NCBI GenBank assembly: GCA_947497145.1 | Contig: CANMFQ010000005.1 | Span: forward strand, 211,345-275,344 | Reading direction: 5' to 3' | DNA length: 64,000 nt | DNA from: an uncultured Flavobacteriaceae bacterium | GTDB lineage: Bacteria > Bacteroidota > Bacteroidia > Flavobacteriales > Flavobacteriaceae | Part shown: one piece after another, positions 9,303-43,200 of the stretch | Position numbering within the stretch: position 1 is the stretch's first letter | How the letters are laid out: each line of letters opens with the position of its first letter | Program-made: the position numbers and the translations under genes | Notes under the pieces: model-generated | What the model saw: the letters and a program-made list of their open reading frames with translations, nothing else | Database searches by the model: none | Told to the model about the DNA's origin: nothing

Positions 9303-10160
9303 ATGATCCAATCCATGACTGGTTTCGGAAAGCATGTTATACAGCTTCCATCTAAAAAAATCACGGTAGAGTTAAAGTCTCTAAACAGTAAAAGTTTAGA
9401 TATTAATACACGTATGCCTTCTGCTTATCGCGAAAAAGAACTTGAATTACGTAAGATAATAGCAAACTCACTTATTAGAGGCAAAATCGATTTCACCCTT
9501 TACATAGAGTTTACGGGCAGTGAAACTTCTGCGCAAATTAATGAGACTGTTGTAAAACAATATATGGCACAATTAAGCGCCATTGCCAGTGGTGATAATT
9601 TGCGTTTGTTAGAGTTAGCTTTGCGTATGCCAGATACGATGAAAACTGAGCGCGAAAACATTGATGTTGAAGAGTTTGCTTCTATTCAACTAGCATTAAA
9701 AGAGGCGTTAACCGAAATCAATAATTTCAGAACTGCGGAAGGTAATGTTCTTGAAAATGATTTTTTAGCACGTATAAAAACACTCGAAGAATTACTACAA
9801 GCTGTTGTTGAAATGGATCCGGACAGGCAGACTGATGTGCGCGAACGCTTAAACAAGGCGGTTTCAGATATCAAAGCAGAGGTTGATGCCAATCGTTTTG
9901 AGCAAGAACTCATTTATTACCTAGAAAAATACGATATTACTGAGGAAAAAGTACGCCTAACAAACCACTTAGATTACTTTTCTGAAACTTTAAAATCAAG
10001 TGATTCAAACGGTAAAAAGCTAGCCTTTATTTCTCAAGAAATAGGTCGTGAAATAAACACCATAGGGTCAAAAGCTAACTATGCACCCATGCAACAACTA
10101 GTTGTACAAATGAAAGATGAGTTAGAAAAAATTAAGGAACAAATGCTTAATGTTTTGTGA
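9303..10160 (+). CDS. yicC: YicC family protein (putative endoribonuclease)
   Basis: MIQSMTGFGKH start, SLNSKSLDINTRMP, C-terminal REINTIGSKANYAPMQQLVVQMKDELEKIKEQ. Confidence 0.93.
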   Translation: MIQSMTGFGKHVIQLPSKKITVELKSLNSKSLDINTRMPSAYREKELELRKIIANSLIRGKIDFTLYIEFTGSETSAQINETVVKQYMAQLSAIASGDNLRLLELALRMPDTMKTERENIDVEEFASIQLALKEALTEINNFRTAEGNVLENDFLARIKTLEELLQAVVEMDPDRQTDVRERLNKAVSDIKAEVDANRFEQELIYYLEKYDITEEKVRLTNHLDYFSETLKSSDSNGKKLAFISQEIGREINTIGSKANYAPMQQLVVQMKDELEKIKEQMLNVL

Positions 10161-10744
10161 TGAAAGGAGGAAAACTAATTATATTTTCGGCACCTTCAGG
10201 CAGTGGAAAAACCACTATAGTGCGCTACCTTCTAGAGCAACCTGAATTGAACTTAGCTTTTTCAGTTTCGGCAACTTCAAGACCTCGAAGAGGCAAAGAA
10301 AAAAATGGACAGCATTACTATTTTAAAAGTGTTTCAGAATTTAAGCAGCACATTAAAAATGATGATTTTTTAGAGTGGGAAGAGGTCTATCGTGATAATT
10401 TTTACGGCACACTTAAAAGTGAAGTAGAACGCCTTTGGGCAGCAGGAAAAAACGTAATTTTTGATATTGATGTGGTAGGCGGATTACGCATTAAGAAAAA
10501 ATTTCCCAAAGAAACCCTTGCTGTTTTTGTAAAACCGCCCAGTGTTGATGAATTAAAAATAAGACTCAAAAAACGCAGTACCGAAAGTGATGACAAAATC
10601 AATATGCGCGTAGCAAAAGCCTCTGTAGAATTAGCTACCGCACCGCAATTTGACACGGTGATCAAGAACTACGATTTAGATATTGCTTTACAGGAAGCAC
10701 ATAAACTTGTAGCCGATTTTGTAGGCGTAAATAAGGACGATTAA
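10160..10744 (+). CDS. gmk: guanylate kinase
   Basis: LIIFSAPSGSGKTTIVRYLL P-loop, SVSATSRPRRGKEKNGQHYYF; ATG at 10160 overlaps the yicC stop (TGATG), track start 10157 is a GTG. Confidence 0.96.
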   Translation: MKGGKLIIFSAPSGSGKTTIVRYLLEQPELNLAFSVSATSRPRRGKEKNGQHYYFKSVSEFKQHIKNDDFLEWEEVYRDNFYGTLKSEVERLWAAGKNVIFDIDVVGGLRIKKKFPKETLAVFVKPPSVDELKIRLKKRSTESDDKINMRVAKASVELATAPQFDTVIKNYDLDIALQEAHKLVADFVGVNKDD

Positions 10745-10769
10745 ACACTAGCCAAATCACCCCTTCTTG

Positions 10770-11354
10770 ATGAAAAAAATAGGTTTGTATTTTGGCACGT
10801 TTAACCCCATTCATATTGGGCATATGGTAATTGCCAATCATATGGTAGAGTTTTCAGACTTAGATGAAGTTTGGTTTGTTGTAACACCGCAGAGTCCGTT
10901 TAAAACAAAGAAAACCTTACTTGATAATCACCACCGCTATCAAATGGTATTTGAAGCAACCAAAGATTTTGCCAAGTTATCGCCTAGCAAGATAGAATTT
11001 GACCTGCCACAACCTAATTACACCATAAATACGCTTGTTCATTTAGATGAAAAGTATGGTAACGACCATCAGTTTTGCTTAATTATGGGTGAAGACAATT
11101 TGAAAGGGTTTCATAAATGGAAAAACTATGAAACTATTTTAGAAAATTACCATTTGTATGTCTACCCCAGAATATCTGAGGGCAAAATAGCACATCAATT
11201 TGAAGGTCATCCTAAAATACACAAAGTAAATGCGCCTATAATGGAGATTTCTTCTACGTTTATTCGTAAAAATCATCAGGCAAAAAAAAATATCCGTACA
11301 CTATTACCCGATGCTGTATGGCGCTATATGGATGAAATGAACTTTTATAGGTAA
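10770..11354 (+). CDS. nadD: nicotinate-nucleotide adenylyltransferase
   Basis: IGLYFGTFNPIHIGHMVIANHM; ISSTFIRKN; conserved position after gmk. ATG at 10770. Confidence 0.95.
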   Translation: MKKIGLYFGTFNPIHIGHMVIANHMVEFSDLDEVWFVVTPQSPFKTKKTLLDNHHRYQMVFEATKDFAKLSPSKIEFDLPQPNYTINTLVHLDEKYGNDHQFCLIMGEDNLKGFHKWKNYETILENYHLYVYPRISEGKIAHQFEGHPKIHKVNAPIMEISSTFIRKNHQAKKNIRTLLPDAVWRYMDEMNFYR

Positions 11355-11439
11355 GCACCGTTTACTCCTTTGTATTTCAAACCGCTATGCGATTTATAAA
11401 GAAGGTATTACGTATTTGTCTTGTAGTGCTAATAGTCCC

Positions 11440-12564
11440 TTATTTAAATAAGTTTAAGTAACTATCAAACACATATAATTTATCACGCTTACCACCTGTT
11501 ATTTCTTTTAATATTTCTAATTCCTCTAAATCTGCAATTAAATTATAAGCTGTACGTTTAGAAACTTCTGCAACTTCAGTTATCTTATCTACATCAATCA
11601 TAGGTCGTTTAAAAAGATATTGCATTATTTTTTGAGCGTTATTTGCTTTTGTTCCTAAAGTTTGAATATTCAGCTCCGTATTTTGTTTTAATTTTAAAAT
11701 TGCATCAAATGTTTCTACTCCTTTTTGTGCTGTTTCTATAATACCTACTAAAAAGAATTTAAACCATTGTACTATATCATTTTTTGTCCTCACCTTCATT
11801 AAATTATCGTAGTACAGGTTTTTATTTCGCTCAAAAAAATCTGATAGATACAGAATTGGTTTTTTAAGTATGTCTTTGTCTACTAAATATAACGTAATTA
11901 ATAAACGCCCTACACGCCCGTTACCATCTAAAAAAGGGTGAATGGTTTCAAATTGGTAATGAATGATGGCTATTTTTAAGAGATCTGGAAAATACACTTC
12001 GTTATTATGTGCAAAATTTTCCAAATCGCTCATTAATTCATTAATTGTGGTATGTACAGGCGGAATAAAAGCAGCATCACTTATAGAAGCACCACCAATC
12101 CAGTTTTGACTGCTACGGAAAACTCCTGGTAGTTTATGCTCCCCTCTTACTCCTTGCAATAAGGTTTTGTGTGTTTCTCTAATTAAACGTGATGAAAAAG
12201 GTAATTTTTGCAACATTTCTATAGCTTGATGCATGGCTTTAATGTAGTTTTGCACTTCTACCCAATCCTCTTTTTTTTCGTTGCTTACATCCTCTGCATC
12301 TAATAAGGCTTCTTCCATATTAGTTTGTGTACCTTCTATTTTACTACTCTGTGTAGCTTCTTTAAGTACGTGCATACTAATAAATAAATCAATATCTGGT
12401 ATATGCTCACTATACATATCTAAACGCCCCAATTGCCTATCTGCTTTAGATAGTAATTGAATTAGCTCCATATCTTCTAATAGCCATTTTTTATTAATAA
12501 GTTCTGGCTGAAAACTTTTATAATGCCCTTGATTTATATACGTACCCGATTTAAAATTTTGCAT
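11440..12564 (-). CDS. Fic-family protein with N-terminal inhibitory motif and C-terminal winged-helix-like domain
   Basis: HPFLDGNGRVGRLL Fic motif; SSKIEG fits the class II inhibitory (S/T)xxxE(G/N) motif; C-term VDKITEVAEVSKRTAYNLIADLEELEILKEITGGKRDKLYVF is wHTH-like. Confidence 0.93.
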   Translation of the reverse strand: MQNFKSGTYINQGHYKSFQPELINKKWLLEDMELIQLLSKADRQLGRLDMYSEHIPDIDLFISMHVLKEATQSSKIEGTQTNMEEALLDAEDVSNEKKEDWVEVQNYIKAMHQAIEMLQKLPFSSRLIRETHKTLLQGVRGEHKLPGVFRSSQNWIGGASISDAAFIPPVHTTINELMSDLENFAHNNEVYFPDLLKIAIIHYQFETIHPFLDGNGRVGRLLITLYLVDKDILKKPILYLSDFFERNKNLYYDNLMKVRTKNDIVQWFKFFLVGIIETAQKGVETFDAILKLKQNTELNIQTLGTKANNAQKIMQYLFKRPMIDVDKITEVAEVSKRTAYNLIADLEELEILKEITGGKRDKLYVFDSYLNLFK

Positions 12565-12570
12565 TTTTTA

Positions 12571-12780
12571 GTTATTTATTGCATTAGACCGCTCACTAAT
12601 GCAAAATAACGTTTTATTTTGCAATAAGATATTCGCTAATGCAAAATATTGCATTTTTTTTGCAATAAGAAACCTGCTATTGTAAAAAATACGCTTTTTT
12701 TACAATAAGAACCTCACTAAGGTAAATTTACGCCTATTTTTACTTTAACCGTTACCACCTCATTAATTAAGGTTTTACGC
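12571..12780. repeat. array of 4 clear (plus about 1 decayed) ~40-bp units, each an imperfect dyad TTGCAWTAAG-N7/8-CTAATGCAA, immediately upstream of the fic gene
   Basis: Left half-sites at 12579, 12619, 12660, 12700; right half-sites at 12596, 12636, 12677, 12717; period 40/41/40 bp. Confidence 0.85.
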
Positions 12781-12832
12781 AACTCTTTTATCAGACCCTA
12801 AGTTAAGACCAGCATCTATTACCCAAAAACAG

Positions 12833-12864
12833 AAAATCCAACCTAAATACATAGATTGGATTTT
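12833..12864 (-). terminator. hairpin downstream of tRNA-Asn
   Basis: AAAATCCAA ... TTGGATTTT inverted repeat. Confidence 0.65.
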
Positions 12865-12873
12865 ACTTTTCTG

Positions 12874-12947
12874 CTCCCCCTCTTGGGCTCGAACCAAGGA
12901 CCCTCTGATTAACAGTCAGATGCTCTAACCAACTGAGCTAAGGAGGA
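12874..12947 (-). tRNA. tRNA-Asn(GTT)
   Basis: Reverse strand TCCTCCTTAGCTCAGTTGGTTAGAGCATCTGACTGTTAATCAGAGGGTCCTTGGTTCGAGCCCAAGAGGGGGAG: full cloverleaf, anticodon loop CTGTTAA, TTCGAGC T-loop, acceptor TCCTCCT/AGGGGGA. Confidence 0.96.
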
Positions 12948-13055
12948 AAATCACCACTTTAATTACTTAAAGCGGGTGCAAATATAATCGTTTTTTAAAA
13001 TACCACAAACAAAAAAAACATGATTTATCAGAAAGATTGCAATTAATTTTAAATC

Positions 13056-23369: not shown

Positions 23370-23612
23370 ATGGAATGGTATAAAATTATTGGGTGGCTTG
23401 GTGCTTTATTGTTCATCGCAGCGTATGTATTACTTACGCTGAAAAAAATATCAGCAGCAAAACCCTTCTATCACATTTTAAATATTTTAGGGGCAGTATG
23501 CCTAATCATAAATGCCTCTAAAATACATGACTTTCCTAATATTTTGGTGAATAGCATCTGGACCATTATTGGCCTATATGCACTACTGCAATTTTTCTTC
23601 ACTAGAAAGTAA
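23370..23612 (+). CDS. CBU_0592-like small membrane protein
   Basis: 80 aa, three TM; IGWLGALLFIAAYVLLTLKKISAAKPFYHILNILGAVCLIINA. Confidence 0.75.
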   Translation: MEWYKIIGWLGALLFIAAYVLLTLKKISAAKPFYHILNILGAVCLIINASKIHDFPNILVNSIWTIIGLYALLQFFFTRK

Positions 23613-24221
23613 AACTGTAGTATCATTAAAAGAGAGTAATTGGGTGGTATACTTTATATAAATAGCCACCTGCTTATCATAATCGGGTCCAGATTGCTGA
23701 AAAGTACCCAAATAATAATACGCACCATCTACCAATGCAAAAATCACTTCGGTAACCTCATCAATATTCTTATTCAATATCAATCCGTGAGCATGGGCTT
23801 CATGTAGTTTTTGTCGTAAAACTCCGTGTAAAGACTCTAAATAATCTTTAAAACTCTTATTAAAATCTTCATTACGATAAATTAAAGCATAGCAACTGTA
23901 AAAAACACCATCATCAAAATACTTATTCCATTTTCGAGAAAAAAGAGTCTCAATAAAATGTCGTAATTTTTTTTCTGAATCCATCGACCCATACTCCTTA
24001 CTAGCCACAATATTAAGATGTTGTTCGAGTATAAATTCATTAAGCCCCTTTAAAAGTTCGTCTTTAGTTTTAAAATAATGCATCACAAGACCATTGCTAA
24101 TATTCATTTTACGAGCAACTTTCGCTATCGAAGTATTTTCTAACCCTATCTCTTTTGCTATTGCATAAAATGCCTTAACAATTTCTTTACGTCGAATATT
24201 ACCTAAGCTCTTTCTTCCCAT
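23583..24221 (-). CDS. TetR-family transcriptional regulator, BetI-like
   Basis: N-terminal IRRKEIVKAFYAIAKEIGLENTSIAKVARKMNISNGLVMHYFKTKDELLKG HTH. Confidence 0.88.
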   Translation of the reverse strand: MGRKSLGNIRRKEIVKAFYAIAKEIGLENTSIAKVARKMNISNGLVMHYFKTKDELLKGLNEFILEQHLNIVASKEYGSMDSEKKLRHFIETLFSRKWNKYFDDGVFYSCYALIYRNEDFNKSFKDYLESLHGVLRQKLHEAHAHGLILNKNIDEVTEVIFALVDGAYYYLGTFQQSGPDYDKQVAIYIKYTTQLLSFNDTTVLLSSEEKLQ

Positions 24222-24284
24222 TTTTCAAAGATTAAAAAAAAAAGATTTTCTACGACAAGTTAACATTAAATTAAAGATTTATTA

Positions 24285-24302
24285 ATTGAACGTTCATTCA
24301 AT
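24285..24302. promoter_or_regulatory. candidate TetR operator ATTGAACGTTCATTCAAT
   Basis: Contains perfect 10-bp palindrome TGAACGTTCA and flanking ATTGAA/TTCAAT arms; lies in the divergent intergenic region 24222-24348. Confidence 0.65.
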
Positions 24303-24348
24303 CTATTAGAGAAGCATATACTTTTGACGACATAAAACAGAACCAATT

Positions 24349-25626
24349 ATGAAAACTAAAAATATGTTTTTGAACAATACACTGCTAGTGCTGCTAGGCA
24401 TTGTCATTTCTCAAACTTCATTTGGAAACACGGTACAACACAACGATAGTACCGCAAAAAAGAAAGTAGTCTTTATTCTTGTAGATGGGATAGCTGCTGA
24501 TATGCTTGAAAAAGCAAAAACCCCCAATTTGGATGCTATTGCCACCGTAGGACACTATTCAAAAGCCTATGTAGGAGGTAAAAAAGCAGGGTATTCTGAA
24601 ACACCTACAATTTCAGCCGTAGGTTACAATAGCATGCTTACTGGTACTTGGGCAAATAAACATAATGTATGGGGCAATAGCATAAAGAATCCTAATTACA
24701 ACTACCCTACTATTTTCCGAATTCTAAAAGACAATCACCCCCAAAAGCAAACAGCCATTTTTTCTACATGGCTAGATAACCGCACCAAACTTATCGGTGA
24801 AGATCTTGCGGCAACAGATCATATTAAAATGGATTATGCCTTTGACGGATTTGAACTTGATACCATTAACTTTCCGCATGACAAACAACGACAGTACATT
24901 AAAAATATAGATGAAAAAGTAGCACAGGAAGCTGCCCGCTATATTAAAGAAGAAGGGCCAGACCTTTCGTGGGTATACCTAGAATTTTCAGATGATATGG
25001 GGCATGGTTTTGGTGACAGTCCACAACTCTATAACGCCATTGAATTTGAAGATGCGCTAGTAGGCAACATATGGAAAGCTGTTGTAGAAAGAGAAAAAAC
25101 CTTCAACGAAGAGTGGTTGGTCATTATCACCACCGATCACGGTAGATCATCAGAAGACGGCAAAGGTCATGGAGGACAATCTGACCGAGAAAGAAGCACT
25201 TGGATTGTTACCAACGCCAAAAACACAAATAGTTATTTTAAAACGCAAACTCCAGCAATCATTGACATCATGCCTACCATACAACGCTTTATGCATTTAA
25301 ACATCCCTACACATGTTGGTTATGAAATAGATGGTATTCCATTCATTGGCAAAGTAGACGTTGCCAATTTAGAGGCTACTAAAACTCCAAACAAGCAGCT
25401 AAAACTCCGTTGGAAATGCATCTCAAATCCAACAAAAAAAGCCACTGTTCTTATCTCACCCACAAACAACCACGCAAAAGGAGGTGTTGATAAGTACACT
25501 GCTGTAGGAGAAGTTACCATAGGTGATGAAGAATTCATTGTTCCAACAGTTACAAAATCAAATCTTTATAAAATTGTCCTAAAAGCACAAAACAACACCA
25601 TAAATACATGGATGTTAAAAAACTAA
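24349..25626 (+). CDS. alkaline phosphatase family / nucleotide pyrophosphatase-phosphodiesterase-type enzyme
   Basis: VVFILVDGIAADMLEKAKTPNLDAIA, SAVGYNSMLTGTWANKHNVWGN, IITTDHGRSSEDGKGHGGQ; signal peptide. Confidence 0.9.
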   Translation: MKTKNMFLNNTLLVLLGIVISQTSFGNTVQHNDSTAKKKVVFILVDGIAADMLEKAKTPNLDAIATVGHYSKAYVGGKKAGYSETPTISAVGYNSMLTGTWANKHNVWGNSIKNPNYNYPTIFRILKDNHPQKQTAIFSTWLDNRTKLIGEDLAATDHIKMDYAFDGFELDTINFPHDKQRQYIKNIDEKVAQEAARYIKEEGPDLSWVYLEFSDDMGHGFGDSPQLYNAIEFEDALVGNIWKAVVEREKTFNEEWLVIITTDHGRSSEDGKGHGGQSDRERSTWIVTNAKNTNSYFKTQTPAIIDIMPTIQRFMHLNIPTHVGYEIDGIPFIGKVDVANLEATKTPNKQLKLRWKCISNPTKKATVLISPTNNHAKGGVDKYTAVGEVTIGDEEFIVPTVTKSNLYKIVLKAQNNTINTWMLKN

Positions 25627-25653
25627 AAATCAACAAACAAAACAGCATAAAAA

Positions 25654-28600
25654 ATGAAAGCAATAATTAATTTCTTTGTAATCTGCCTGGTAGTATTTAC
25701 CACCTATTCGCAAGAAACCATTTCAGGTGTGGTGCAAGACAATACAGGTGTACCTTTGGCTGGTGTAACGGTTTTAATAGAAAACACCGCACAAGGAACC
25801 GCCACCGATTTTGATGGTAATTTCACCATTGAAGCTCAAATAGGAGACGAAATAGTATTCTCATATATTGGTTTTAAGACAGCGCATATTACCATAACCA
25901 ACCAAAAGACCATCAACCTAACCATGGTTGAAGATTCTGAACAATTGAGTGAGGTTGTAGTTACCGCTCTGGGGATAAAAAAAGAAAAGAAAGCCTTAGG
26001 CTACGCATCACAAGAGGTGGCTGGTAATCTGCTAGAAAAAACGAAAGAACCCACGGTTTTTGGAAACCTCACGGGTAGAGTCGCAGGCTTAGAGGTAAAC
26101 AATTCTACCGACCTATTTCAAGATCCTAAAATTGTATTGAGAGGAAGAACAAACAAAACCCTAATCGTCATTGACGGTATTCCTGTTGATGGTAGTGAAT
26201 CTGGCAATACGGATTATTTTAAGGTATTGGGTGATGATGTAGCACAGGTAAACGTATTAAAAGGCACCACTGCTTCGGCACTTTATGGCGCAAGAGGAAG
26301 AAACGGTGCTATCATGATTACCACCAAAAAAGGAAAGAGTGGAAAAATAAATGTAGCGTTGAACGTTTCTACCATGTATCAGCCCTCATTTATTAGATCT
26401 CCAAAAGTTCAAACTGTTTACGGCAACGGCAATCAAGGTAACTACGCCTATATTGATGGCTCTGGATCTGGAACAGAAGGTGGCGGATGGATTTGGGGAC
26501 CAAGAGTAGACCAAAAAGATCCTAGTACCCCCAGCGGTCTTTTTGAAACAACCCAGTACAATAGCCCTACTGACCCTGTTACTGGTGAACTTATCCCTAT
26601 ACCCTTTACCTCTCGCGGAAAAGATAATATTAAAAACTTTTTCCGTACCGGATACATACGATCAGTTAATGCAAGTGCAGACTGGGGTTCTGACAAAAGC
26701 ACTTTTAGAGTATCGCTATCAAACGTGTACCAACAAGGTATTGTGCCCAATACAGACCTAAATAATGTTTCTTTTTCGCTGGCTGGATCTATGAAACCTG
26801 CCGACAACGTAAACATCAGCGGATCAATGACCTACAACAAGCAGTTTACTGAAAATTTTCCTGAAATTGGCTATGGACCAACCAACTACCTGTATAACCT
26901 TGTACTTTGGACAGGGGTAGATGTTGATGTACGTGATTTAAAAAACTACTGGCGTGAAGGGCAAGAAGGGTTTCAACAAAGACACTTCAATATATCGTAT
27001 TACAACAACCCCTATTTTCAAGCATACGAGTATCAAAGAGGATACGATAAGGATAATATTTACGGAAACCTCAGCCTTGCTTATGAGGTTGTACCCAACT
27101 TAACCCTCAAAGCCCGTAGTGGTATTAATGTGTGGAGTCTTTACCGAACCTTTAAAGAACCTAAAAGTTATATCGGCTATGGTTCAAAATCACAAGGTAA
27201 TTTTGAACAACGAGATGCCAACCTATTTGATATTACTTCAGATTTAGGACTCCGCTATGAAACCAAATTTTCTGAGAATTTTAGCTTAGAAACTGAAGCA
27301 GCTTATGCCCACTACTTTAAAAAGCAAATCTATAATTCCATCAGTACCGATGGCTTAACCATACCCGGTTTTTACAATGTTTCCAACAATTTAGGTAGCA
27401 CCTTGTTTGGCGAAAACAGAGAAGAAAAATCTGCTATTCAAAGTTTCTATGCCTATGCAGACCTTAACTTTTACAATGCTTTTTATTTATCTTTAACAGG
27501 AAGAAATGATAAAATATCAGCACTTCCAAACGGAAACAACTCCTATTTTTATCCCTCAATATCAGGTTCTTTAATTGTATCTGAATTGTTTTCAAAACCA
27601 AGCTGGCTCACCTTTGCTAAACTTCGTGGAGGTTTTAGCCAAGTGAGAGATGGTAATTATAATGACAATTCAAACGGCCCTTACTCATTACTACAGGCCT
27701 ATGGAAGTGGAACCATTTGGAATGGCGTACCGTCTAGTAGTGCATTAAATGTACTTATCAACCCCAATGTAAGAACAGAAATAGATAATACGTGGGAGAT
27801 TGGTGCCGATTTGCGTTTCTTTAATAATCGCTTAGGGATTGATTTAGCCTACTACAACAGGCTCACAGAAGATACTATATTAAAAGTACCTGCTTCAGAT
27901 GCTTCGGGCTATACTTTTCGTTTAGAAAACGGGGGATCTACCAGAACCAAAGGTATAGAAGCCATTATTAATGCTACTCCCTTAAAAACAGAAACTTTTG
28001 AATGGAATACTAGCCTTAATTTATCCCACTACAGAGACTACCAAGTAAGTATTTTTGGTGATGCTGAGCGTACCAAAAATTACGTGCGTGTTGGTGAACG
28101 TACAGATCAAATCTGGGACAATGTATATCAAACCAACAGTGAAGGTGAAGTGGTCTATGAAAATGGTTTTCCTGTATTTGATCCTTTCAAACGTTTTATT
28201 GGTCATGCAGCACCAGACCTTATTTACGGCCTTAACAATACGTTTAAGTACAAGAACTTCTCACTTTCCCTCCTTTTTGATGGTAGATTGGGTGGTTATA
28301 TGTATTCCATTACCAATCAAAAAATGTGGTGGGGCGGCAAGCATCCAGGCACTGTCAATCAGTTTAGAACCGATGCTAACAATGGCGAGAGTACCTATGT
28401 TGGCAATGGTGTTATTGTTACTGATGGTACGGTAACCTATGATGTAAACGGAAACATTACCAGCGATACTCGTACCTACGCGCCCAATACCGAGGCTATT
28501 AATTACATTACTTATAACCAAACTACCTCTGATCGCCAAAACCATAATTATCATTACTATGTTCGTGATTATATCAAATTACGTGAAGTGACACTTACCT

Positions 28601-28776
28601 ATAACTTTGGTAAAGCAACCCTAGACAGATTGCCATTTTCTGATGCAAGCCTCTCTTTTGTAGGCAGAAACCTTTGGCTTTCTTCTACTCTAGAAAATGT
28701 AGATCCTGAATTTAACGATAACCTACAAGCACCTGCAACAAGAAGCCTTGGGTTAAACCTTAATTTAAAATTTTAA
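25654..28776 (+). CDS. SusC/RagA-family TonB-linked outer membrane protein
   Basis: ISGVVQDNTGVPLAGVTVLIENTAQGTATDFDGNFTI, EVVVTALGIKKEKKALGYASQEV, ALYGARGRNGAIMITTKKG. Confidence 0.97.
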   Translation: MKAIINFFVICLVVFTTYSQETISGVVQDNTGVPLAGVTVLIENTAQGTATDFDGNFTIEAQIGDEIVFSYIGFKTAHITITNQKTINLTMVEDSEQLSEVVVTALGIKKEKKALGYASQEVAGNLLEKTKEPTVFGNLTGRVAGLEVNNSTDLFQDPKIVLRGRTNKTLIVIDGIPVDGSESGNTDYFKVLGDDVAQVNVLKGTTASALYGARGRNGAIMITTKKGKSGKINVALNVSTMYQPSFIRSPKVQTVYGNGNQGNYAYIDGSGSGTEGGGWIWGPRVDQKDPSTPSGLFETTQYNSPTDPVTGELIPIPFTSRGKDNIKNFFRTGYIRSVNASADWGSDKSTFRVSLSNVYQQGIVPNTDLNNVSFSLAGSMKPADNVNISGSMTYNKQFTENFPEIGYGPTNYLYNLVLWTGVDVDVRDLKNYWREGQEGFQQRHFNISYYNNPYFQAYEYQRGYDKDNIYGNLSLAYEVVPNLTLKARSGINVWSLYRTFKEPKSYIGYGSKSQGNFEQRDANLFDITSDLGLRYETKFSENFSLETEAAYAHYFKKQIYNSISTDGLTIPGFYNVSNNLGSTLFGENREEKSAIQSFYAYADLNFYNAFYLSLTGRNDKISALPNGNNSYFYPSISGSLIVSELFSKPSWLTFAKLRGGFSQVRDGNYNDNSNGPYSLLQAYGSGTIWNGVPSSSALNVLINPNVRTEIDNTWEIGADLRFFNNRLGIDLAYYNRLTEDTILKVPASDASGYTFRLENGGSTRTKGIEAIINATPLKTETFEWNTSLNLSHYRDYQVSIFGDAERTKNYVRVGERTDQIWDNVYQTNSEGEVVYENGFPVFDPFKRFIGHAAPDLIYGLNNTFKYKNFSLSLLFDGRLGGYMYSITNQKMWWGGKHPGTVNQFRTDANNGESTYVGNGVIVTDGTVTYDVNGNITSDTRTYAPNTEAINYITYNQTTSDRQNHNYHYYVRDYIKLREVTLTYNFGKATLDRLPFSDASLSFVGRNLWLSSTLENVDPEFNDNLQAPATRSLGLNLNLKF

Positions 28777-28786
28777 AAGCAACACT

Positions 28787-30256
28787 ATGAAAATCTATAG
28801 CATAAAACCCCTAGTGATTTTACTAACGATACTGTTGGTAGGCTGTTCTGATATTGATGCATTACAAGATGACCCAAACCGCACTGTAAATGCCAATCCT
28901 GAATTACTTTTTACACACCTTCAGATAAAGGCGTTTAGCAGCAACGTAAGCCTAAGTGCTGCCCTCGCCAACAGACAGCTTACTAATGTTGATGGCGCTA
29001 GCCAATACCAATACTACACCTGGCAACGAGGTAATTTTAATGCTTATGACAACCTCAAACAAGCCAATGAAATGACTAAAGAGGCCAACAGAACTAATCA
29101 AGATGTATATCGCATTTTGGCCAATTTCTTCAAATCTTATTTCATTGTTGAAATAAGTCAGCAATTTGGTGATGTGCCTTATACTGAAGCTGCTAAGCTT
29201 ACAGAAGGCATTAACCAACCCGTATATGACACCCAAGAAAGTATCTATTTGCAAGTTTTAGAAGATTTAAAAATGGCATCTTCAGAATTGGCTGTAACTA
29301 ATGAAACGATTTCTGGTGATATTATTTATGGAGGTGATAAATTAAAATGGCGTAAACTCATAAATTCATATGCACTACGGGTCCTTATGAGCCTGTCTAC
29401 AAAAGAAGGGCAATCAACAATTGATGTAGCAGAGCGGTTTGGCGCTATTGTTAATAATCCTTCCCAATTCCCCATATTTGAATCTAATGAAGACGCTGGG
29501 TTTATTAATTATGTTGATACCGATAAAAACCGGTATCCTTTAAACAGAAACAACAGTCTTCAAACCGCCTATTATATGGAGAAAACATTTGTGGATGAAT
29601 TAATAAACTTAAGAGACCCTCGCTTATTTGCTTTTGCAGAACGTACTCCTAACGGTGTAGCAAATGGCTTAGCAGAAGATGATTTTAATGCCTATGGCGG
29701 ACTATTAGGAAGTGCCCCTTTCAGTGACTTGGCAGTGCCTGCAACAGAAGGTAATGCATCTCGTATCAAACCCCGATATTACGAAGACCCCATTAATGAA
29801 CAAGGGGTACTCATGGGGTATGCAGAGTTGCAATTCATTTTGGCAGAAGCAGCAGAACGCGGGTGGATTTCTGGAGAAGTAGCCCCATTTTACGAAGCAG
29901 GCATCACTGCATCAATGAACTATTATGGTATTGAAGACGAAGCAAGCATCAATACATACCTTAATCAATCAGGTGTAAAACTTACAGGTACAAATACCAT
30001 TGCACAAATCATGACGCAAAAGCACATTGCCCTATTCTTAAACACAGGGTGGCAAATTTTCTATGAGCAAAGACGTACAGGATTCCCTGTTTACGATACT
30101 TCAGGTGGTGGCACCGGCAATGGCGGAAGAATTCCGAAACGTTTTATGTATCCTGAATCTGAAATAAACAATAATAATACAAATCTGGAAGCTGCAATTT
30201 CCAGACAATATCCAGCAGGCGATGATGTAAACGCTGCGATGTGGTTAATTAATTAA
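28787..30256 (+). CDS. SusD/RagB-family lipoprotein
   Basis: Lipobox LLVGCSD; ALQDDPNRTVNANPELLFTHLQ; SusD-like helical repeats; follows SusC. Confidence 0.93.
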   Translation: MKIYSIKPLVILLTILLVGCSDIDALQDDPNRTVNANPELLFTHLQIKAFSSNVSLSAALANRQLTNVDGASQYQYYTWQRGNFNAYDNLKQANEMTKEANRTNQDVYRILANFFKSYFIVEISQQFGDVPYTEAAKLTEGINQPVYDTQESIYLQVLEDLKMASSELAVTNETISGDIIYGGDKLKWRKLINSYALRVLMSLSTKEGQSTIDVAERFGAIVNNPSQFPIFESNEDAGFINYVDTDKNRYPLNRNNSLQTAYYMEKTFVDELINLRDPRLFAFAERTPNGVANGLAEDDFNAYGGLLGSAPFSDLAVPATEGNASRIKPRYYEDPINEQGVLMGYAELQFILAEAAERGWISGEVAPFYEAGITASMNYYGIEDEASINTYLNQSGVKLTGTNTIAQIMTQKHIALFLNTGWQIFYEQRRTGFPVYDTSGGGTGNGGRIPKRFMYPESEINNNNTNLEAAISRQYPAGDDVNAAMWLIN

Positions 30257-30318
30257 ACTCACTTTATGTAATCAACTATTGCCCTGCAATTAAAATGGGT
30301 TTTAAAATAATGTGATTT

Positions 30319-30351
30319 GGGTTAGTGCTTTTGGGTACTAACCCTTTTTTT
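30319..30351 (+). terminator. intrinsic terminator after SusD gene
   Basis: GGGTTAGT-N10-ACTAACCC followed by TTTTTTT. Confidence 0.88.
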
Positions 30352-30472: not shown

Positions 30473-33124
30473 ATGAAAATCTATATACTTACGGTATGTG
30501 CAATACTCCTTGCGCATACCGTTCTTTTATCACAAGACAGTACTGACGTTGTGATAAAAAGAAGCTACACCACCACGTTTTTAAACAAAACAGCCGCACC
30601 AGATATAGATGGTTTACTTGATGATCCTGCTTGGAACATTGTTGCATGGGAAAGTGACTTTATAGAAAGCCGCCCCGATGAGAATACAGCACCTGATCAT
30701 CAAACAAAATTTAAAATTGTGTATGACCAAAAGTTCTTGTACGTAGGTATACGTGCTTATGACAGCGAGCCTGATAAAATTGAAATGCGTCTTTCTAGGC
30801 GCGATGGTTTTACAGGTGACTGGGTAGGTTTATTTATTGACAGTTACCATGACAAGCGTTCTGCCTTTGGTTTTGTAACCACCGCCGCAGGTGTTAAAGG
30901 CGATGTTTTTGAATCTAATAATGGCAACAATGAAGATGAAAGTTGGAATCCTATTTGGTATACCAAATCAAATACCGACAAAGAAGGGTATACTGTTGAA
31001 ATGAAAATTCCACTGAGTCAACTGAAATTTGGAAATTCAAAAGAACAAATATGGGGACTCCAAGTCATGCGTCAATATTTTCGCTCCGAGGAACGTTCTG
31101 TTTGGCAGCGCATTAAACAAGATACTCCAGGTTTTGTAAGTGAGTTTGGTGTACTCAACGGATTAATGAATCTTACACCTCAAAAACAATTAGAAATTCA
31201 ACCCTATACGGTAGCTAAACTAGAAACCTATGAAGCCGAAGCAGGAAACCCTTTTCGTGATGGCAGTGATAGTGAAATAACGGGTGGACTTGATGCCAAA
31301 ATAGGAATCACCAATGATTTAACCTTAGATTTAACGGTAAACCCAGATTTTGGTCAAGTAGAAGCTGACCCTTCAGCCATTGCTCTTGATGGGTTTCAAA
31401 TATTTTTTGAAGAACAACGTCCGTTCTTTGTTGAAAACAAAAATATTTTTGATTACCAAATAAGTAACTCGGAGGCAGGTAATACCTTTCGCTCAGACAA
31501 TCTTTTTTATTCAAGACGCATAGGTAGAAGCCCCCAAGGCTACCCAGAAACCACGGATGGTGAATTCGTAGATCAGCCAGAAAATACAGCTATTTTAGGA
31601 GCAGCCAAGTTCAGCGGAAAAACCAAAAATGGATGGTCGATAGGTGTTTTAGAAAGCGTGACCGCAAAAAAATATGCGACTATAGCTAGCGATGACACAC
31701 AACGAAAAGAGGTTGTTGAACCCTTGACCAACTATTTTGTAGGCAGAGTACAAAAAGATTTTAACGACAGTAATACCTTCATTGGCGGAATTTTTACCGC
31801 AACAAGCCGCAACAAACTCACCCCTGAACTTGATTTTTTACATCATTCTGCCTTTACTGGAGGGGTAGATCTAAAACACCAATGGAACGACCGCGACTGG
31901 TATGTAGGAGGCAATTTTATAATTAGTCGTGTAAATGGCAGTAACCAAGCCATCACCAACACGCAGCAGTCTATAACACATCTTTTTCAACGTACAGGAG
32001 CTAGCCATATAACTGTTGATGAAAAACGAACCTCACTTACAGGTACCGGAGGAAATTTACAACTAGGAAAAGTTGGCAATGGGCATTGGAAATTTGAAAC
32101 TGGAGCTACCTGGCGTTCTCCAGAATTAGAACTTAATGATGTAGGCTTTCAACGGCAGGCAGATGATATACGTCACTATACATGGGTGGGATATCAAACA
32201 CTAAAACCTACCAGCACGTTTAGACAAGTAGGTATCAATTACAACCATTGGAGTGTTTGGGATTTTGGCGGAAACAATAACAGCATCCGATTCAATACCA
32301 ATAGCTGGCAAAATTGGGCAAATAACTGGTTTACCAATATTGGCTTTAATTATGAACCTAAGCAATATTCAAATTTTGCCCTGAGAGGAGGGCCAAGATT
32401 ACGAATGGCACCTGAAATAGGTTTTTTTAACGGGTATAATACCGACCGAAGAAAAAAAGTACAGTTCAATGCCTTTCATGGGGGCAATAAAGGCACTGAC
32501 AACTCTTATAGTTCTTACTTCGTAGACTTTGGCATCACCTACCGACCCCTTAATGCCCTAAGTATCTCAGCAAACCCGGAGTATAATATTTACAAAAACA
32601 AATTGCAATACATAGCTAATATCAACAACAATGATAAAACCACTTATCTCAATGGTACTGTAGACCAAAGAACCTTGAGCATGTCTCTTCGTTTAAATTA
32701 CACCATTAATCCTAACCTAACCATTCAATATTGGGGGCAACCATTTGTTTCCAGAGGAAGGTATTCAGCCTTTAAAGAAGTTACAAATCCTATTGGACAG
32801 CACTTCGTTGACAGAATTTTTCGCTACACAGCTCAACAAGTTTCATTTGCAAACAACGTGTACTCGGTAGACACAAATTTAGATAAGATAAGCGATTTCA
32901 CTTTTGACAATCCTGATTTTTCATTTGTTCAGTTCCGCTCCAATCTTGTTGTTCGTTGGGAATATATTCCTGGTTCAGAAATTTTTCTGGTCTGGTCACA
33001 AGATTTAGCACAATCTGGCAACCCACAGAATGCACTTTTTAACGACTTAGGTGACCATATTTTCAATACTGAAAAACCACAAAATATCTTTTTAATAAAG
33101 GCAACCTATCGGTTTGTACTATAA
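30473..33124 (+). CDS. DUF5916 protein with N-terminal CBM9-like domain
   Basis: PDIDGLLDDPAWNIVAWESDFIESRPDENTAPDHQTKFKIVYDQKFLYVGIRAYDSEPDKI; LDLTVNPDFGQVEADPSAIALDGFQIFFEEQRPFFVENKNIF typical of DUF5916. Confidence 0.9.
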   Translation: MKIYILTVCAILLAHTVLLSQDSTDVVIKRSYTTTFLNKTAAPDIDGLLDDPAWNIVAWESDFIESRPDENTAPDHQTKFKIVYDQKFLYVGIRAYDSEPDKIEMRLSRRDGFTGDWVGLFIDSYHDKRSAFGFVTTAAGVKGDVFESNNGNNEDESWNPIWYTKSNTDKEGYTVEMKIPLSQLKFGNSKEQIWGLQVMRQYFRSEERSVWQRIKQDTPGFVSEFGVLNGLMNLTPQKQLEIQPYTVAKLETYEAEAGNPFRDGSDSEITGGLDAKIGITNDLTLDLTVNPDFGQVEADPSAIALDGFQIFFEEQRPFFVENKNIFDYQISNSEAGNTFRSDNLFYSRRIGRSPQGYPETTDGEFVDQPENTAILGAAKFSGKTKNGWSIGVLESVTAKKYATIASDDTQRKEVVEPLTNYFVGRVQKDFNDSNTFIGGIFTATSRNKLTPELDFLHHSAFTGGVDLKHQWNDRDWYVGGNFIISRVNGSNQAITNTQQSITHLFQRTGASHITVDEKRTSLTGTGGNLQLGKVGNGHWKFETGATWRSPELELNDVGFQRQADDIRHYTWVGYQTLKPTSTFRQVGINYNHWSVWDFGGNNNSIRFNTNSWQNWANNWFTNIGFNYEPKQYSNFALRGGPRLRMAPEIGFFNGYNTDRRKKVQFNAFHGGNKGTDNSYSSYFVDFGITYRPLNALSISANPEYNIYKNKLQYIANINNNDKTTYLNGTVDQRTLSMSLRLNYTINPNLTIQYWGQPFVSRGRYSAFKEVTNPIGQHFVDRIFRYTAQQVSFANNVYSVDTNLDKISDFTFDNPDFSFVQFRSNLVVRWEYIPGSEIFLVWSQDLAQSGNPQNALFNDLGDHIFNTEKPQNIFLIKATYRFVL

Positions 33125-33489: not shown

Positions 33490-36264
33490 ATGAAAAATTC
33501 ATTTACAATTTTTTTATTGGTTTTTGCATCTAATTTACTGATAGCACAAAACGATTCAGTAAAAGTCTCTTTAACATTTACCAATACATCAATTAATGAA
33601 GTATTACAAAATATAGAAGAACAAACTTCATATCAATTTTATTATATCGGCGCATGGTTAGAAGGTAAAAAAGTTACTGGCAACTACCAAAACACCCCAA
33701 TACAAGAGGTATTAAGAGATTTGTTTCAGAATACAATTCTCAATTTTTATCTACTTGACAAAAAAATAATTCTGACTCAAAACAATCTGATATATGATAA
33801 ACTACCTGACGGATTTTTTAAAAACTCTGAACAAAAAACGGCACGAGCAACAGAAAATGAATCTATTACTAATTCTCTAAATCCTGTTTTTTTTATCGAT
33901 GAACAATTGCTTATACAAAGCAAAATAGAAACAATTCGAATTGGCAAAGAAACACTTATCGCTCCAAAAAAAAGATACAAACTTTCTGGATATGTACGAA
34001 ATCTGAAAACAGGAAAACCAATTCCTGATTTATCACTAATCGTAAAAAATAGAGGTATTGGTGTAGTCACTGATGAAAATGGATTTTATGAGCTTGATTT
34101 ACCAGTCGGAGAAAATTTAATTCAAACTAAAGCATTAGGTGTTAAATCGCAACAAAAAAGAATTCTAGTCTACAATGAAGGTAACTTAGACTTTAATTTA
34201 AATGAAAATATTGAAAAGTTAGACGAAGTGATTGTTGAAGCAGATAGAGCTAAAAATGTTGAAGAAGAAATCACAGGGACTACCAGCATTGAATCGGAGA
34301 AAACTAAAGACATTCCTATGGTCTTAGGAGAGCGGAATATTTTGTCTGTAGCAACAACATTACCCGGCATTACTAATGCAGGCGAAGGGGCTTCGGGCCT
34401 TAATGTAAGAGGAGGAAAAACAGATCAAAATTTGATCTTATTAGATCAGGGTACAGTGTATAATCCAACACATTTTTTTGGTATTTTTCAAGCACTTAAC
34501 CCTTTCGCTACAAAGGGAGTTACCATTTACAAAGGCAACATACCAGCAGAATTTGGAGGTCGTCTGTCTTCCGTTTTTGACATTACTACTATTTACGGGA
34601 ATACCGAAAAGATTTCGGGAGAAGCTTCCATCGGCCCCATAACAGCAAATTTAATGTTAGAAATTCCAATAGCAAAAGATAAATCTTCATTGGTTATTGG
34701 AGGTAGAGGAGCATACTCCGATTGGATTTTAAAGGCTTTAGAGGAAGAATCTTTAAAAAACAGCTCTGCTTCATTTTATGATGTAGTGGCTAATTATAAC
34801 CACAAAATAAATGAAAAAAATCAATTAAAAATCACTGCATATTATAGCAAAGATGCTTTTAGTATTACATCAGATTCTTTATATGGGTACAGTAACCGTC
34901 TATTTACTTTAAATTGGAAGCATAAATTTAACGAACGGACTAATACAAATCTAATTCTAACCAATAGCGAGTATGCTTTTGGTATCGATTTTGATGGGCA
35001 AGCCAACAATGATTTTAACTTAGGTTATAATGTAAATGAGTCTGAACTAAAACTAAAATTTAAGTATTTATGGAATGACGCACATACCTTTGGTTACGGT
35101 GCCTCAAGTAAACTCTATAGTGTAAACCCAGGCTTTATAGAACCACAAGGCTCAGAATCTATAATATCTCCATTTGCAATTGACAAAGATCATGCATTAG
35201 AAAGTGCTATTTTTTTAAGTGATAATATTAAAATAGGAGATCAACTTAGTATCGAAGCAGGTATTCGTTATTCCCTATATATGGCCCTAGGAGCATCTAC
35301 GCAAAATGTTTATACCGATGGGCAACCCAGAAACGAAGCTACCCTCACAGAAACCATTAACTATGACAAAAACGAAGTTATAGAAACCTACAGCGGACCT
35401 GAATTTCGAATATCAAGCAGATACTCTTTCAGTGATGATTTTTCTATTAAGGCCGGTTTTAATAGCATGTACCAATACATCCACACCCTTTCAAACACCA
35501 CTACCGTTTCGCCAATTGACACCTGGAAATTATCAGATTCAAACATTAAACCTCAACGCTCTAATCAAATAAGCTTAGGGTTCTTTAAAAACTTTGAAAA
35601 TGACATGTACGAGCTAAGCCTTGAAGGTTACTATAAAGCAGCTAAGGACATTTTAGATTTTAAAACAGGTGCTCAATTAATTTTAAATGATAATATTGAA
35701 CAGGAAGTACTACAAGGAATAGGACGAGCCTATGGTGTTGAAGTCTTGGCTCGTAAAAATTCTGGTAGACTCAATGGCTGGTTGGGCTATACCTATTCTA
35801 GATCATTGATAAAATTTGCGAGTGCGTTTTCTGAAGAACGTATTAATGGAGGAAAGTACTTTCCATCTAATTATGACAAACCTCATGATGTAAGTTTAGT
35901 AGCGAACTACAAGTTTACCAAAAGATATAGTGCCTCTTTAAATTTTTCATATCAAACGGGTAGACCAGTTACTTACCCTATTGGGCAGTATAATTTTAAT
36001 AATTCTGAATACGTTTTCTACAGTAATAGAAATGAATTTAGAATACCTGATTACTACCGCTTAGATATAGGTATAAACATTGAAGGAAACCATAAAATCA
36101 AAAAATTTGCACACAGTTTTTGGAATATTTCAGTATACAATGTTTTAGGAAGAGCCAATCCTTATTCCGTATTTTTTGTGTCTGAAAACGGCAAGGTTAA
36201 CGCATTTAAAAGCTCCATTTTTGCCATACCCATTCCATCAATTACCTATAATTTTAAGTTTTAA
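33490..36264 (+). CDS. TonB-dependent receptor with N-terminal STN-like and CarboxypepD-regulatory domains
   Basis: STN-like VKVSLTFTNTSINEVLQNIEEQTSYQFYYIG; CTD-reg GYVRNLKTGKPIPDLSLIVKNRGIGVVTDENGFYELDLP; plug GLNVRGGKTDQNLILLDQGTVYNPTHFFGIF. Confidence 0.93.
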   Translation: MKNSFTIFLLVFASNLLIAQNDSVKVSLTFTNTSINEVLQNIEEQTSYQFYYIGAWLEGKKVTGNYQNTPIQEVLRDLFQNTILNFYLLDKKIILTQNNLIYDKLPDGFFKNSEQKTARATENESITNSLNPVFFIDEQLLIQSKIETIRIGKETLIAPKKRYKLSGYVRNLKTGKPIPDLSLIVKNRGIGVVTDENGFYELDLPVGENLIQTKALGVKSQQKRILVYNEGNLDFNLNENIEKLDEVIVEADRAKNVEEEITGTTSIESEKTKDIPMVLGERNILSVATTLPGITNAGEGASGLNVRGGKTDQNLILLDQGTVYNPTHFFGIFQALNPFATKGVTIYKGNIPAEFGGRLSSVFDITTIYGNTEKISGEASIGPITANLMLEIPIAKDKSSLVIGGRGAYSDWILKALEEESLKNSSASFYDVVANYNHKINEKNQLKITAYYSKDAFSITSDSLYGYSNRLFTLNWKHKFNERTNTNLILTNSEYAFGIDFDGQANNDFNLGYNVNESELKLKFKYLWNDAHTFGYGASSKLYSVNPGFIEPQGSESIISPFAIDKDHALESAIFLSDNIKIGDQLSIEAGIRYSLYMALGASTQNVYTDGQPRNEATLTETINYDKNEVIETYSGPEFRISSRYSFSDDFSIKAGFNSMYQYIHTLSNTTTVSPIDTWKLSDSNIKPQRSNQISLGFFKNFENDMYELSLEGYYKAAKDILDFKTGAQLILNDNIEQEVLQGIGRAYGVEVLARKNSGRLNGWLGYTYSRSLIKFASAFSEERINGGKYFPSNYDKPHDVSLVANYKFTKRYSASLNFSYQTGRPVTYPIGQYNFNNSEYVFYSNRNEFRIPDYYRLDIGINIEGNHKIKKFAHSFWNISVYNVLGRANPYSVFFVSENGKVNAFKSSIFAIPIPSITYNFKF

Positions 36265-36283
36265 AACTAATCATAAATTACTA

Positions 36284-37543
36284 ATGCAATTTTACAAATC
36301 ACTTATACTATTCATCTTTATTAATTTAGGATTTACTGCCTGTGTAGAAACTTTTGACTTTAAAACAGAAACTTTTGAGGAGGCCTTAGTTATTGAAGCA
36401 TCTTTGACAAATGAAAATAAACGACATCAAGTCCTACTATCAAGAGCCATTAGGTTTGAGGACTCAATTGTTTCGCCTGAACGAAATGCACGAATCGTCA
36501 TTCGAGATGATAAACAAAATGAGTTTTCATTTGAAGAGGTTGAACCGGGAATTTACAAATCAAACTTAGCTTTTTCCGCTGAAAAGGGAGTAAACTATTC
36601 CTTACAAGTGCTAACAGAAGATGGTACTAGCTATATTTCTGATCCTGAAAATTTTGAGTCAGAATCAGAAATTACAAACGTATATGCTGAACGAGGAACA
36701 AATGCAGAAGGTATTGAAGGCATCAATATTTATACAGATGCTGTTGATTTTTCAAATAAATCAAAATATTACCGCTATGAATACGACGAAACCTATAAAA
36801 TAATCGCCCCTAATTGGACCTCTGTTGATTTCAAATTAACGAACTATCAACCATGTAATCCAAATTCAAACGATCCTTCAATTATATATGATTTACAAGT
36901 TGTAACAAGAGATGAAGAGCAACAAGTATGTTTTAAAACATTAAATTCTCAAAATATAATTCAAAATAGTTCTGCAAATCTATCTAATAGCCAAATTCAA
37001 CGCTTTCCAATACGTTTTATAAAGGCCGGCGATTTCATTATATCCCATAGATACAGTATCTTAATAAAGCAATATGTACAGTCTGCAAATGCATTTTCTT
37101 ATTATCAAAATTTAGATAATTTTTCGTCTTCAAACTCAGTATTTTCTGACATACAACCTGGTTTTCTTAATGGAAACATTTCCGCTGAAAATGAAAGCGA
37201 CAAAAAAGTATTGGGTTATTTTGAAGTAACCTCAATATCAAAAAAGCGCCTATTTTTCAACTATCGTGATTTTTACCCTGATGAGCCTTTACCACTTTAT
37301 GTGAATAAATGCGTTCCGTTTACGGCACCATTAACCCATATATCTTATTGTTTTTCAGGACCAACAGGAGGAAATCCTTGTCCTCAATCATTAATTGAAC
37401 GTATTCATGTAAATACTATATCCTATGCTGATCAAAATGAAGCGGAAGAAATGTGTTCAGGTCCATATTTAGTAGTACCAAGGGTATGTGGCGATTGTAC
37501 CCTTTTAGGAAGTAATGAAGTACCCGATTTCTGGGTTGACTAA
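36284..37543 (+). CDS. DUF4249 domain-containing lipoprotein
   Basis: MQFYKSLILFIFINLGFTACVETFDF lipoprotein start at ATG 36284 (track start 36176 overlaps the TBDT gene); typical DUF4249 N-terminus ALVIEASLTNENKRHQVLLSRA. Confidence 0.85.
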   Translation: MQFYKSLILFIFINLGFTACVETFDFKTETFEEALVIEASLTNENKRHQVLLSRAIRFEDSIVSPERNARIVIRDDKQNEFSFEEVEPGIYKSNLAFSAEKGVNYSLQVLTEDGTSYISDPENFESESEITNVYAERGTNAEGIEGINIYTDAVDFSNKSKYYRYEYDETYKIIAPNWTSVDFKLTNYQPCNPNSNDPSIIYDLQVVTRDEEQQVCFKTLNSQNIIQNSSANLSNSQIQRFPIRFIKAGDFIISHRYSILIKQYVQSANAFSYYQNLDNFSSSNSVFSDIQPGFLNGNISAENESDKKVLGYFEVTSISKKRLFFNYRDFYPDEPLPLYVNKCVPFTAPLTHISYCFSGPTGGNPCPQSLIERIHVNTISYADQNEAEEMCSGPYLVVPRVCGDCTLLGSNEVPDFWVD

Positions 37544-40273: not shown

Positions 40274-43200
40274 ATGAAAAAAAACACAAAGTACGGGGTA
40301 TCTAATTTAGCGGTCCCGCAAGTCAATCTCAAAACGACATTATTACTCTTCGCTGCACTCCTGTTTCTGAATCAGGGGTACGCAATTAACACATTAAAAA
40401 AATCGTCAACAACACACAATCCAGTGTACCAAACTACCATTTCAGGTACTGTAGTTGATGAAGATGGTATTCCTCTGCCTGGTGCTACGGTAGTCGAAGT
40501 AGGCACCACCAATGGTGTATCAACTGATTTCGATGGAAACTATTATATCACCACCACTCGTGATTCTCCTTCCCTCGAATTCTCATACATAGGGTATGCT
40601 TCACAAACAATAGCAGTAAATGGTAGAACCACTATAAATGTTACCTTGGCTGAAAATGCCAGTGAACTTGATGAAGTTGTGGTCACTGCGTTGGGCATTA
40701 AAAAAGAATCAAAGGCACTAGGCTATTCTGTTGCCAAAGTAGATACGGAGCGTATCTTGGCAAGTGGTGCGCCAGTCAATGCATTACAATCTTTGTATGG
40801 CGCAGCAGCAGGTGTTCAAGTAGCTTCTACTGCAACAGGTCCTTCAGGGGGGTTCAAAATCAATATACGTAATGCTGTTTCATTTGATGAAAACTCAACT
40901 ACCAGACCTTTAATTGTTGTTGATGGAATTCCCATTTTTGATGAGAATTCTAAAGTTACATACAATGACCGAAACGGAAGAGACAATGGTACTGGAATTA
41001 ACGATATTAACCCAGATGATATTGCCTCAATGGAAATATTAAAAGGAGCCAAAGCATCTGTTCTTTATGGCAGTGAAGGAGCTAACGGTGTAATATTAAT
41101 TACCACAAAAAGTGGATCAAGAAGTAAAGGTTTAGGAATTTCTGCCTCATTAACCACCTCTCTTGAAAAAGCGGCCTTTACCGCTGACGTACAAGATCAA
41201 TATGGCACAGGGCGTAGTGCAAGCGTATCAGCTAATGATGACCAGGGCTACTTTATCAATGAAGCTGGTGAACGTGCATTAGATATTTCAGGAACGGCAT
41301 TTGGACCAAAATTTGACCCCAATGTAACACTACGCTGGTGGGACGGGTCTTTAAGACCCTGGCAAGCCACCCGAAGAGATGTTTACGATCAGCTATTTAA
41401 AACCGGATTTCAAAAAACAGCGAACATCGCAGTAAGTTCTGGTGGCGAAAGAGGGTCTGTACGTTTTGGATATACCAATATGGATTACAGTCCTATTATT
41501 AGAGGTGCCAAATATACCAAAAACACCTTTAGTGTTAATGCTTCCTATGATTTGAACGACTATATTTCTATAAAATATGTTAGTAATTATTTTTTAACCA
41601 ATAATCTTAATTCAGCCTATGCAGGGTCTTTTGATTCACAAGGATCAAGAACTGGTTTAGGAGCCTATTCAAGAGACATTGATGTTGACTTACTACGAAG
41701 TTTTTTGGTGACCGAAAATGGGTATAATTATTTTCAAAATGAAGATCGAAGAAGAGACCTTATTTCTGCTGGTAGAGGCGCCATAGTAGGCTCTCTTTGG
41801 GACTGGACACAAAACGAATCTGATTTTAATCGAATTCATGGCATTCAGTCCTTAACTTTAAATTTGACATTTAACGATATTTTTAGCGCTTCAATATTAG
41901 GCGGTATCGACAATACTACTGAAAGAAATGTGTACAAAGGAAAATTACAAGATCCAAGCTTAATAGGGCCAAATAGCGGCTCTGTTTTCAGAGATGAAAA
42001 TCGCATTATTAGAAGAACCTATACACAAGCAACTTTAAATTTCGATACTAACTTCAATGATTTAGGTTTTTCTGGTTTCGCAGGTGCTGTTTACAGAGAT
42101 AATCGTTTTGAAGTTAAGGGTGCAGAAAAAATTGGAGGTTTTGTTATACCAAACTTCTTTTCGTTTACAAACCTTCCTTCAGGTGTTAATCCTAACGCAA
42201 TTGTAGATAATGGTAGAGATGTACTTTATGGCCTGATGGGTTCTATGCAACTTGATTGGAAAGGGCAAGTCTATGTTGAAGCTCAAGCGCGCCAAGATTG
42301 GTCTTCTATTTTACCACCAAATAATAATACCTATTTCTACCCTGGTGTAAGTGCCACTTGGATTGCTTCTAGCTCATTAAACTTACCAAAAGCTGTAAAA
42401 TTCTTAAAACTAAGAACTTCATGGGCTGATGTAGGTCGACCAGGACCGCTCTATTTTAGTAACGTAAATTTAGGCGTTTCACAATCTGGTAATGGTTTTA
42501 TTCTTTCGCCTCCTGGAGATCTTCCCCCAATTGATGCTGAATTCGTTCCTAATTTAAAACCAGAACGTAAACGTGAATTCGAAGTAGGATTGGAAGGATA
42601 TTTCTTTGAAAACCAACGAATAGGTATAGATTTATCGGTTTACCATGCCAATACCTATGATCAGATTATGAAAATAACAGCTCCTCCAGGGCTTGGTGTA
42701 AATAATGTACGAATTAATGCAGGAGATGTTGCAAATACAGGTTGGGAGCTCGCACTAAAAACCAAACCTTTATTTAGTGAAGATTTTCAATGGAACCTAA
42801 ACATGACCTTTGCTTCAAGTAAAACAAAGGTTAAAAGACTTGATGGAGAACTTACTTCTCTTGCTCTTTTTAGTGGCAATGGACTTAACGTAGTAGCCGA
42901 AGTAGGTGGAGAATACGGTCAAATCATACAGCAACAAGGTTGGCAAAATTATATCAATCCATCTGATGACAACGACCCTAACAATGGCAAGCGAATTGTT
43001 GATAGAAATGGCCAACGATATAGCTATTCAAGACAAAGTAATAAATTGGTTGGAAAACTTTTACCTGATCTTACCGGAGGTATCTTCAATAAATTTAATT
43101 ATAAAAATTTCAGTTTAACAGCCAATATAGACTATTCGTTTGGAGCAACATTTATTAATGAAGCTGAGGCCTATTTGTTGGCATCAGGTACTTTAAAAGA

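Follow-up and report, generated by a model that had tools for sequence, protein, structure and literature searches.

SusC/SusD pairs are generally treated as glycan importers. The closest precedent for the locus described here, the PusCD system of Flavobacterium, combines such a pair with phosphodiesterases and is induced by phosphate depletion (PMC8115612). The regulator BetI controls the bet genes, including a betB gene elsewhere in the genome, and its operator is the BetI box ATTGACG*CGTCAAT (PMC12442346). ENPP6 is a choline-specific glycerophosphodiesterase with a serine nucleophile (PMC4757880). In the open-access literature searched, we found no account of a BetI-like TetR protein and its own operator combined with SusCD and exported phosphoesterases. 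Here, we describe a computational analysis of a locus with this composition in an uncultured Flavobacteriaceae bacterium, and argue from comparison with its relatives that it is probably an operon, controlled by TetR, that acquires choline phosphoesters as nutrients, a reading to which we assign a probability of about 0.72.

The window, that is, the whole 64,000-nucleotide stretch that was analysed, comes from a genome of the Flavobacteriaceae type, and its gene order was observed directly. The gene for the TetR-family regulator (23583..24221, minus strand) is divergent from an operon of three plus-strand genes encoding an exported phosphoesterase of the alkaline phosphatase superfamily (PF01663; 24349..25626), a SusC/RagA TonB-dependent transporter (TIGR04056, 541 bits; 25654..28776) and a SusD-like lipoprotein (PF12771; 28787..30256). 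The operon ends at an intrinsic terminator on the plus strand, an 11-bp stem followed by a T run (30319..30344). A sequence-only reading of the window had named the TetR protein, the exported phosphoesterase, the SusC/SusD pair and a DUF5916 protein together, and open reading frames and profile matches locate every one of these. The DUF5916 gene (30473-33124) starts past the terminator, however, and we place it outside the SusCD operon because that terminator is strong; as it is also a conserved neighbour only in the closest relative, it was rejected as a partner. The remaining genes, in which SusC and SusD stand side by side and are accompanied by an exported hydrolase, have the make-up of a SusC/SusD nutrient-acquisition locus, and they share with PusCD the pairing of SusCD with a predicted exported phosphodiesterase and no glycoside hydrolase. 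PusCD differs in its induction by phosphate depletion and in its partner enzymes, and a TetR protein, a dedicated operator and bet genes are not described for it. An 80-amino acid membrane protein is encoded tail-to-tail with TetR (23370..23612, plus strand). Its family has no Pfam match and adjoins TetR in 25 of 43 loci, small open reading frames resembling it occupy the same place in most of the loci found with TetR as bait (below), and it may belong to the TetR-SusCD system. Elsewhere in the window there are a TonB-dependent receptor gene followed by a DUF4249 gene (33490-37543) and a further SusC/SusD pair, with a SusD-like_2 protein (40274-45684).

The best NCBIfam model for the TetR protein is BetI, at scores far under the cut-offs (64.6 versus 201.3 bits for TIGR03384 and 66.0 versus 118 for NF001978). 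Its ligand domain matches PF18665 (TetR_C_37) with 132 bits, whereas PF13977, the BetI-type C-terminal domain, reaches 21.8 bits against a cut-off of 27. The earlier description of the regulator as BetI-like can thus be kept as a likeness, but not as membership of the BetI family, in which the TetR_C_37 domain is replaced by the BetI C-terminal domain. Residues W98, D103, D104, Y108 and Y168-Y170 of the ligand domain are invariant in 41 sequences, and such aromatic and acidic residues would suit a quaternary-amine pocket. The regulator also travels with the enzyme: a TetR orthologue is present in four of 150 related genomes, and all four are among the five that have a close phosphoesterase orthologue.

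Conserved regulatory sequences were sought in 80 loci that each carry a relative of the phosphoesterase gene and four loci from whole genomes, giving 85 loci with the window, one genome having been fetched twice. A TetR orthologue lies within about 10 kb in 43 of these 85 loci (window counted, one genome twice), usually in divergent orientation to the operon. In 1.70 Mb of related loci there are 55 occurrences of the core pattern TGAAYRNNYRTTCA (56 with the duplicate fetch), against one to three expected from eight order-1 Markov simulations, and all 56 matches are at promoters of TetR, phosphoesterase, metallophosphoesterase or SusC genes. The bases flanking the search pattern are also kept (A in 95%, T in 94%), which yields the consensus ATTGAAYRNNYRTTCAAT. 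Operator conservation is in this respect a direct observation and, as judged by phylogenetic footprinting, the 18-bp palindrome ATTGAACGTTCATTCAAT of the window (24285..24302, assigned to neither strand) is a true conserved operator; its co-conservation with TetR suggests that TetR is the protein that binds it. The sequence-only reading had anticipated a palindromic operator here, with the inner palindrome TGAACGTTCA as its core. The inner element was rejected: a relative of the same genus reads TGAACGATCA, and the conserved element is therefore the outer palindrome. The proposed resemblance to BetI operators likewise survives in part, since the ATTGA...TCAAT half-sites are shared, but they are 8 bp apart instead of the 4 bp of the BetI box (PMC12442346).

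A match to the -7 element, TACTTTTG, lies downstream of the operator on the plus strand (24319..24326) and fits the Bacteroidota consensus, TAnnTTTG. The window operator ends where a -33 element would lie, and no good -33 match was found upstream of TACTTTTG in this promoter. In several cases the operator overlaps or abuts a Bacteroidota-type promoter, as would be expected of a repressor site. Eight locus rows of the Flavobacteriaceae type (L046, L049, L055 and similar) have a pair of operators, separated by exactly 58 bp, in the gap between TetR and the phosphoesterase, a spacing that suggests cooperative binding or looping; the operator search of the window found no second site at this distance. 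In loci of the Algoriphagus type a second operator is situated about 90 bp ahead of SusC. A genome-wide search of the window organism returned the TetR promoter as the sole exact operator. One site with a single mismatch, at C14:58122, was rejected because it is inside an alcohol dehydrogenase gene.

The exported phosphoesterase passes the PF01663 gathering score (74.6 versus 23 bits), and structure searches place it in the alkaline phosphatase superfamily, with matches at superfamily level only and no close solved relative. This assignment does not in itself separate a diesterase from a monoesterase. In an alignment with nucleotide pyrophosphatase/phosphodiesterases (NPPs), Ser89 falls on the nucleophile, a role we predict for it here, and Asn110 follows at +21. 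The residues S89, N110, D46, D215, H219, D263, H264 and H274, which include the putative ligands of the two metals, are invariant in 24 sequences. As in ENPP6, a tyrosine follows the nucleophile by four residues (Y93 here, Y75 in ENPP6) and a YxE motif precedes a metal-binding Asp; unlike ENPP6, to which its sequence is only remotely related, the protein has alanine in place of Tyr72, and the histidine predicted as third metal ligand (H274) comes directly after a DHG motif. We have not used the YxE likeness as a test of specificity, because the two proteins agree only in part and NPPs in general share the motif. Sulfatases carry C/S-x-P/A-S/A-R at the nucleophile, and a formylglycine sulfatase of the choline sulfatase (BetC) kind was rejected on the finding of SAVGY there instead. 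The phosphoesterase is fused to an acid phosphatase in L101, and acid phosphatases are encoded a short way downstream of it in L059, L054 and L210, an arrangement that fits a diesterase yielding a monoester product. Elsewhere in the window organism's genome, contig C9 (L117:7107-10003) encodes a PF01663 paralogue of 305 amino acids and two calcineurin-like phosphoesterases, one of which belongs to the metallophosphoesterase family that relatives have in their TetR-SusCD loci. No operator turned up at this group in the search.

A link to choline emerges from the genus Algoriphagus. In four genomes the choline dehydrogenase gene betA directly follows the phosphoesterase gene (819-832 bits, cut-off 732), with a BCCT transporter gene convergent to it. 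When 26 genomes were searched with the operator for extra sites, these four alone were observed to have a single additional operator each, an intergenic site of conserved sequence at the promoter of betB, which encodes betaine-aldehyde dehydrogenase (760-768 bits, cut-off 593). The -7 element TAAATTTG overlaps the betB operator in three of the four, and in A. yeomjeoni betB directly adjoins TetR. The operator thus ties the SusCD locus to choline oxidation, in one case in trans. The system resembles BetI regulons in its TetR-family regulator and half-sites, in its connection to both betA and betB and in having betB as a separate trans target; it differs in controlling SusCD and exported phosphoesterases, and in that the window genome is without bet genes. 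Extra operator matches in the relatives L151 and L153-L157 are intragenic and were taken as chance, and one in L152 is intergenic, upstream of a KdtA-like gene. Arenibacter and Echinicola also encode BetBA (G172, G160, G174), and no operator was found in the stretches around their betA genes.

Because a search that starts from the phosphoesterase biases the sample, TetR was used as bait in a second survey. A TetR-profile search covered 396 genomes of the phylum and then 299 of one other family, and 24 loci were read. Of the 20 loci read from the other family, 19 have SusC-SusD starting immediately at the TetR promoter, and the enzyme slot is filled by the phosphoesterase in 13, a metallophosphoesterase in three and a phosphocholine-specific phospholipase C in two. 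The phylum-wide search supplied a third locus of the last kind (L194), and TIGR03396 scores 751-759 bits across such loci (cut-off 580). This phospholipase C, the slot's occupant in three TetR-SusCD loci, is absent from the window locus and belongs to an unrelated family (PF04185); the swap for an unrelated enzyme specific for phosphocholine is a strong hint as to the substrate. In L212, genes for a permease, BetB, BetA (854 bits, cut-off 732), a GbcA-like oxygenase (406 bits, under its cut-off of 670) and a SoxB-like protein stand beside TetR-SusCD, and the set looks like a possible choline-to-glycine path. The GbcA-like, SoxB-like and an 861-amino acid protein gene adjoin BetBA and TetR-SusCD at L212:1-4247. 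Two structural details were recorded in passing. SusC of L194 is present as two overlapping open reading frames (9809-13011), through a frameshift or sequencing error, and in six loci (among them L035:5318-6160, L059:8908-9795 and L105:8240-9076) a lipoprotein of about 280-295 amino acids, Calx-beta-like in L035, is encoded between SusD and the enzymes and is possibly a surface binding protein.

We propose the following sequence of events. TetR would occupy the 18-bp operator and repress the divergent operon, and probably its own gene too, until choline or a choline metabolite was bound by TetR and caused it to leave the operator. SusCD would then import phosphocholine-containing molecules such as glycerophosphocholine, a lysolipid or other phosphocholine conjugates, and the exported PF01663 phosphoesterase would cut the phosphoester to give choline and phosphate, a step that may be aided in relatives by partners of the metallophosphoesterase, EEP or acid-phosphatase kinds. 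In relatives the choline would then enter through the BCCT transporter or permease, and oxidation by BetA and BetB would turn it into glycine betaine, with further demethylation in one case. The sequence-only reading had suggested choline or phosphoester scavenging through SusCD. From the window alone that suggestion would be weak, but relatives of several families support it well, through betA with BCCT, the operator on betB, the phospholipase C in the enzyme slot, and BetBA with a GbcA-like gene beside TetR.

Several findings count against choline. Direct bet linkage was seen only in Algoriphagus and at a single locus in a second family. Oligomers are the usual cargo of SusCD systems, and a molecule as small as glycerophosphocholine could pass through porins. 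No BetA or BetB above cut-off was found in the window genome or in four members of its family, no BCCT transporter in the window genome, and no OpuAC in nine genomes searched, the window genome included. For the window organism the gain may be phosphate, glycerol or carbon; it may also use other choline genes or differ in substrate. Phosphate or glycerol as the gain would accord with an account in which, as in Flavobacterium PusCD, where SusCD is joined with periplasmic phosphodiesterases (PMC8115612), the locus scavenges phosphate from any phosphodiester and choline is incidental. We regard this as unlikely in view of the local TetR with its dedicated operator and the same operator in trans on betB in four genomes; a TetR protein is not mentioned in the PUS paper (PMC8115612). 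Somewhat more doubtful still is the proposal that in the lineage of the window the same system serves another headgroup, such as phosphoethanolamine or some other phospho-alcohol, and that choline became the speciality of those relatives that gained bet genes. It would account for the Flavobacteriaceae examined being without bet genes, for the two lineage-specific types of SusCD pair and for the variable enzyme set. Against it, W98, D103, D104, Y108 and Y168-Y170 of TetR and the operator are the same in the choline-linked and the window lineages, which suggests the same ligand, and we infer that the window organism shares the substrate of its relatives despite lacking BetA and BetB. Scavenging of nucleotides or nucleic acids, to which the nucleotide enzymes within the PF01663, EEP and metallophosphoesterase families, weak matches to NPPs and exodeoxyribonuclease III, and an e(P4)-family nucleotidase adjoining the phosphoesterase in L210 might point, is very improbable, as no nucleoside genes were noticed among the recurrent neighbours, which instead include bet and phosphocholine-specific phospholipase C genes.

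Beyond the single operon, and with a little more reserve than for its assignment to choline phosphoesters, we consider it reasonably probable that these loci form a widespread class in the Bacteroidota, in which a BetI-like TetR protein and an operator family of the form ATTGAAYRNNYRTTCAAT couple uptake of phosphocholine esters by SusCD to phosphoesterases that are exported and, in a number of lineages, also to the complete catabolism of choline. With the operator consensus in hand, the regulon can be tested directly. If the reading is correct, lipid-headgroup or phosphocholine compounds would join the substrates of SusCD pairs, and the PF18665 TetR protein, this PF01663 subfamily and the neighbouring SusCD pairs would gain an annotation. 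The system would then hint at a route for the turnover of choline phospholipids by Bacteroidota.
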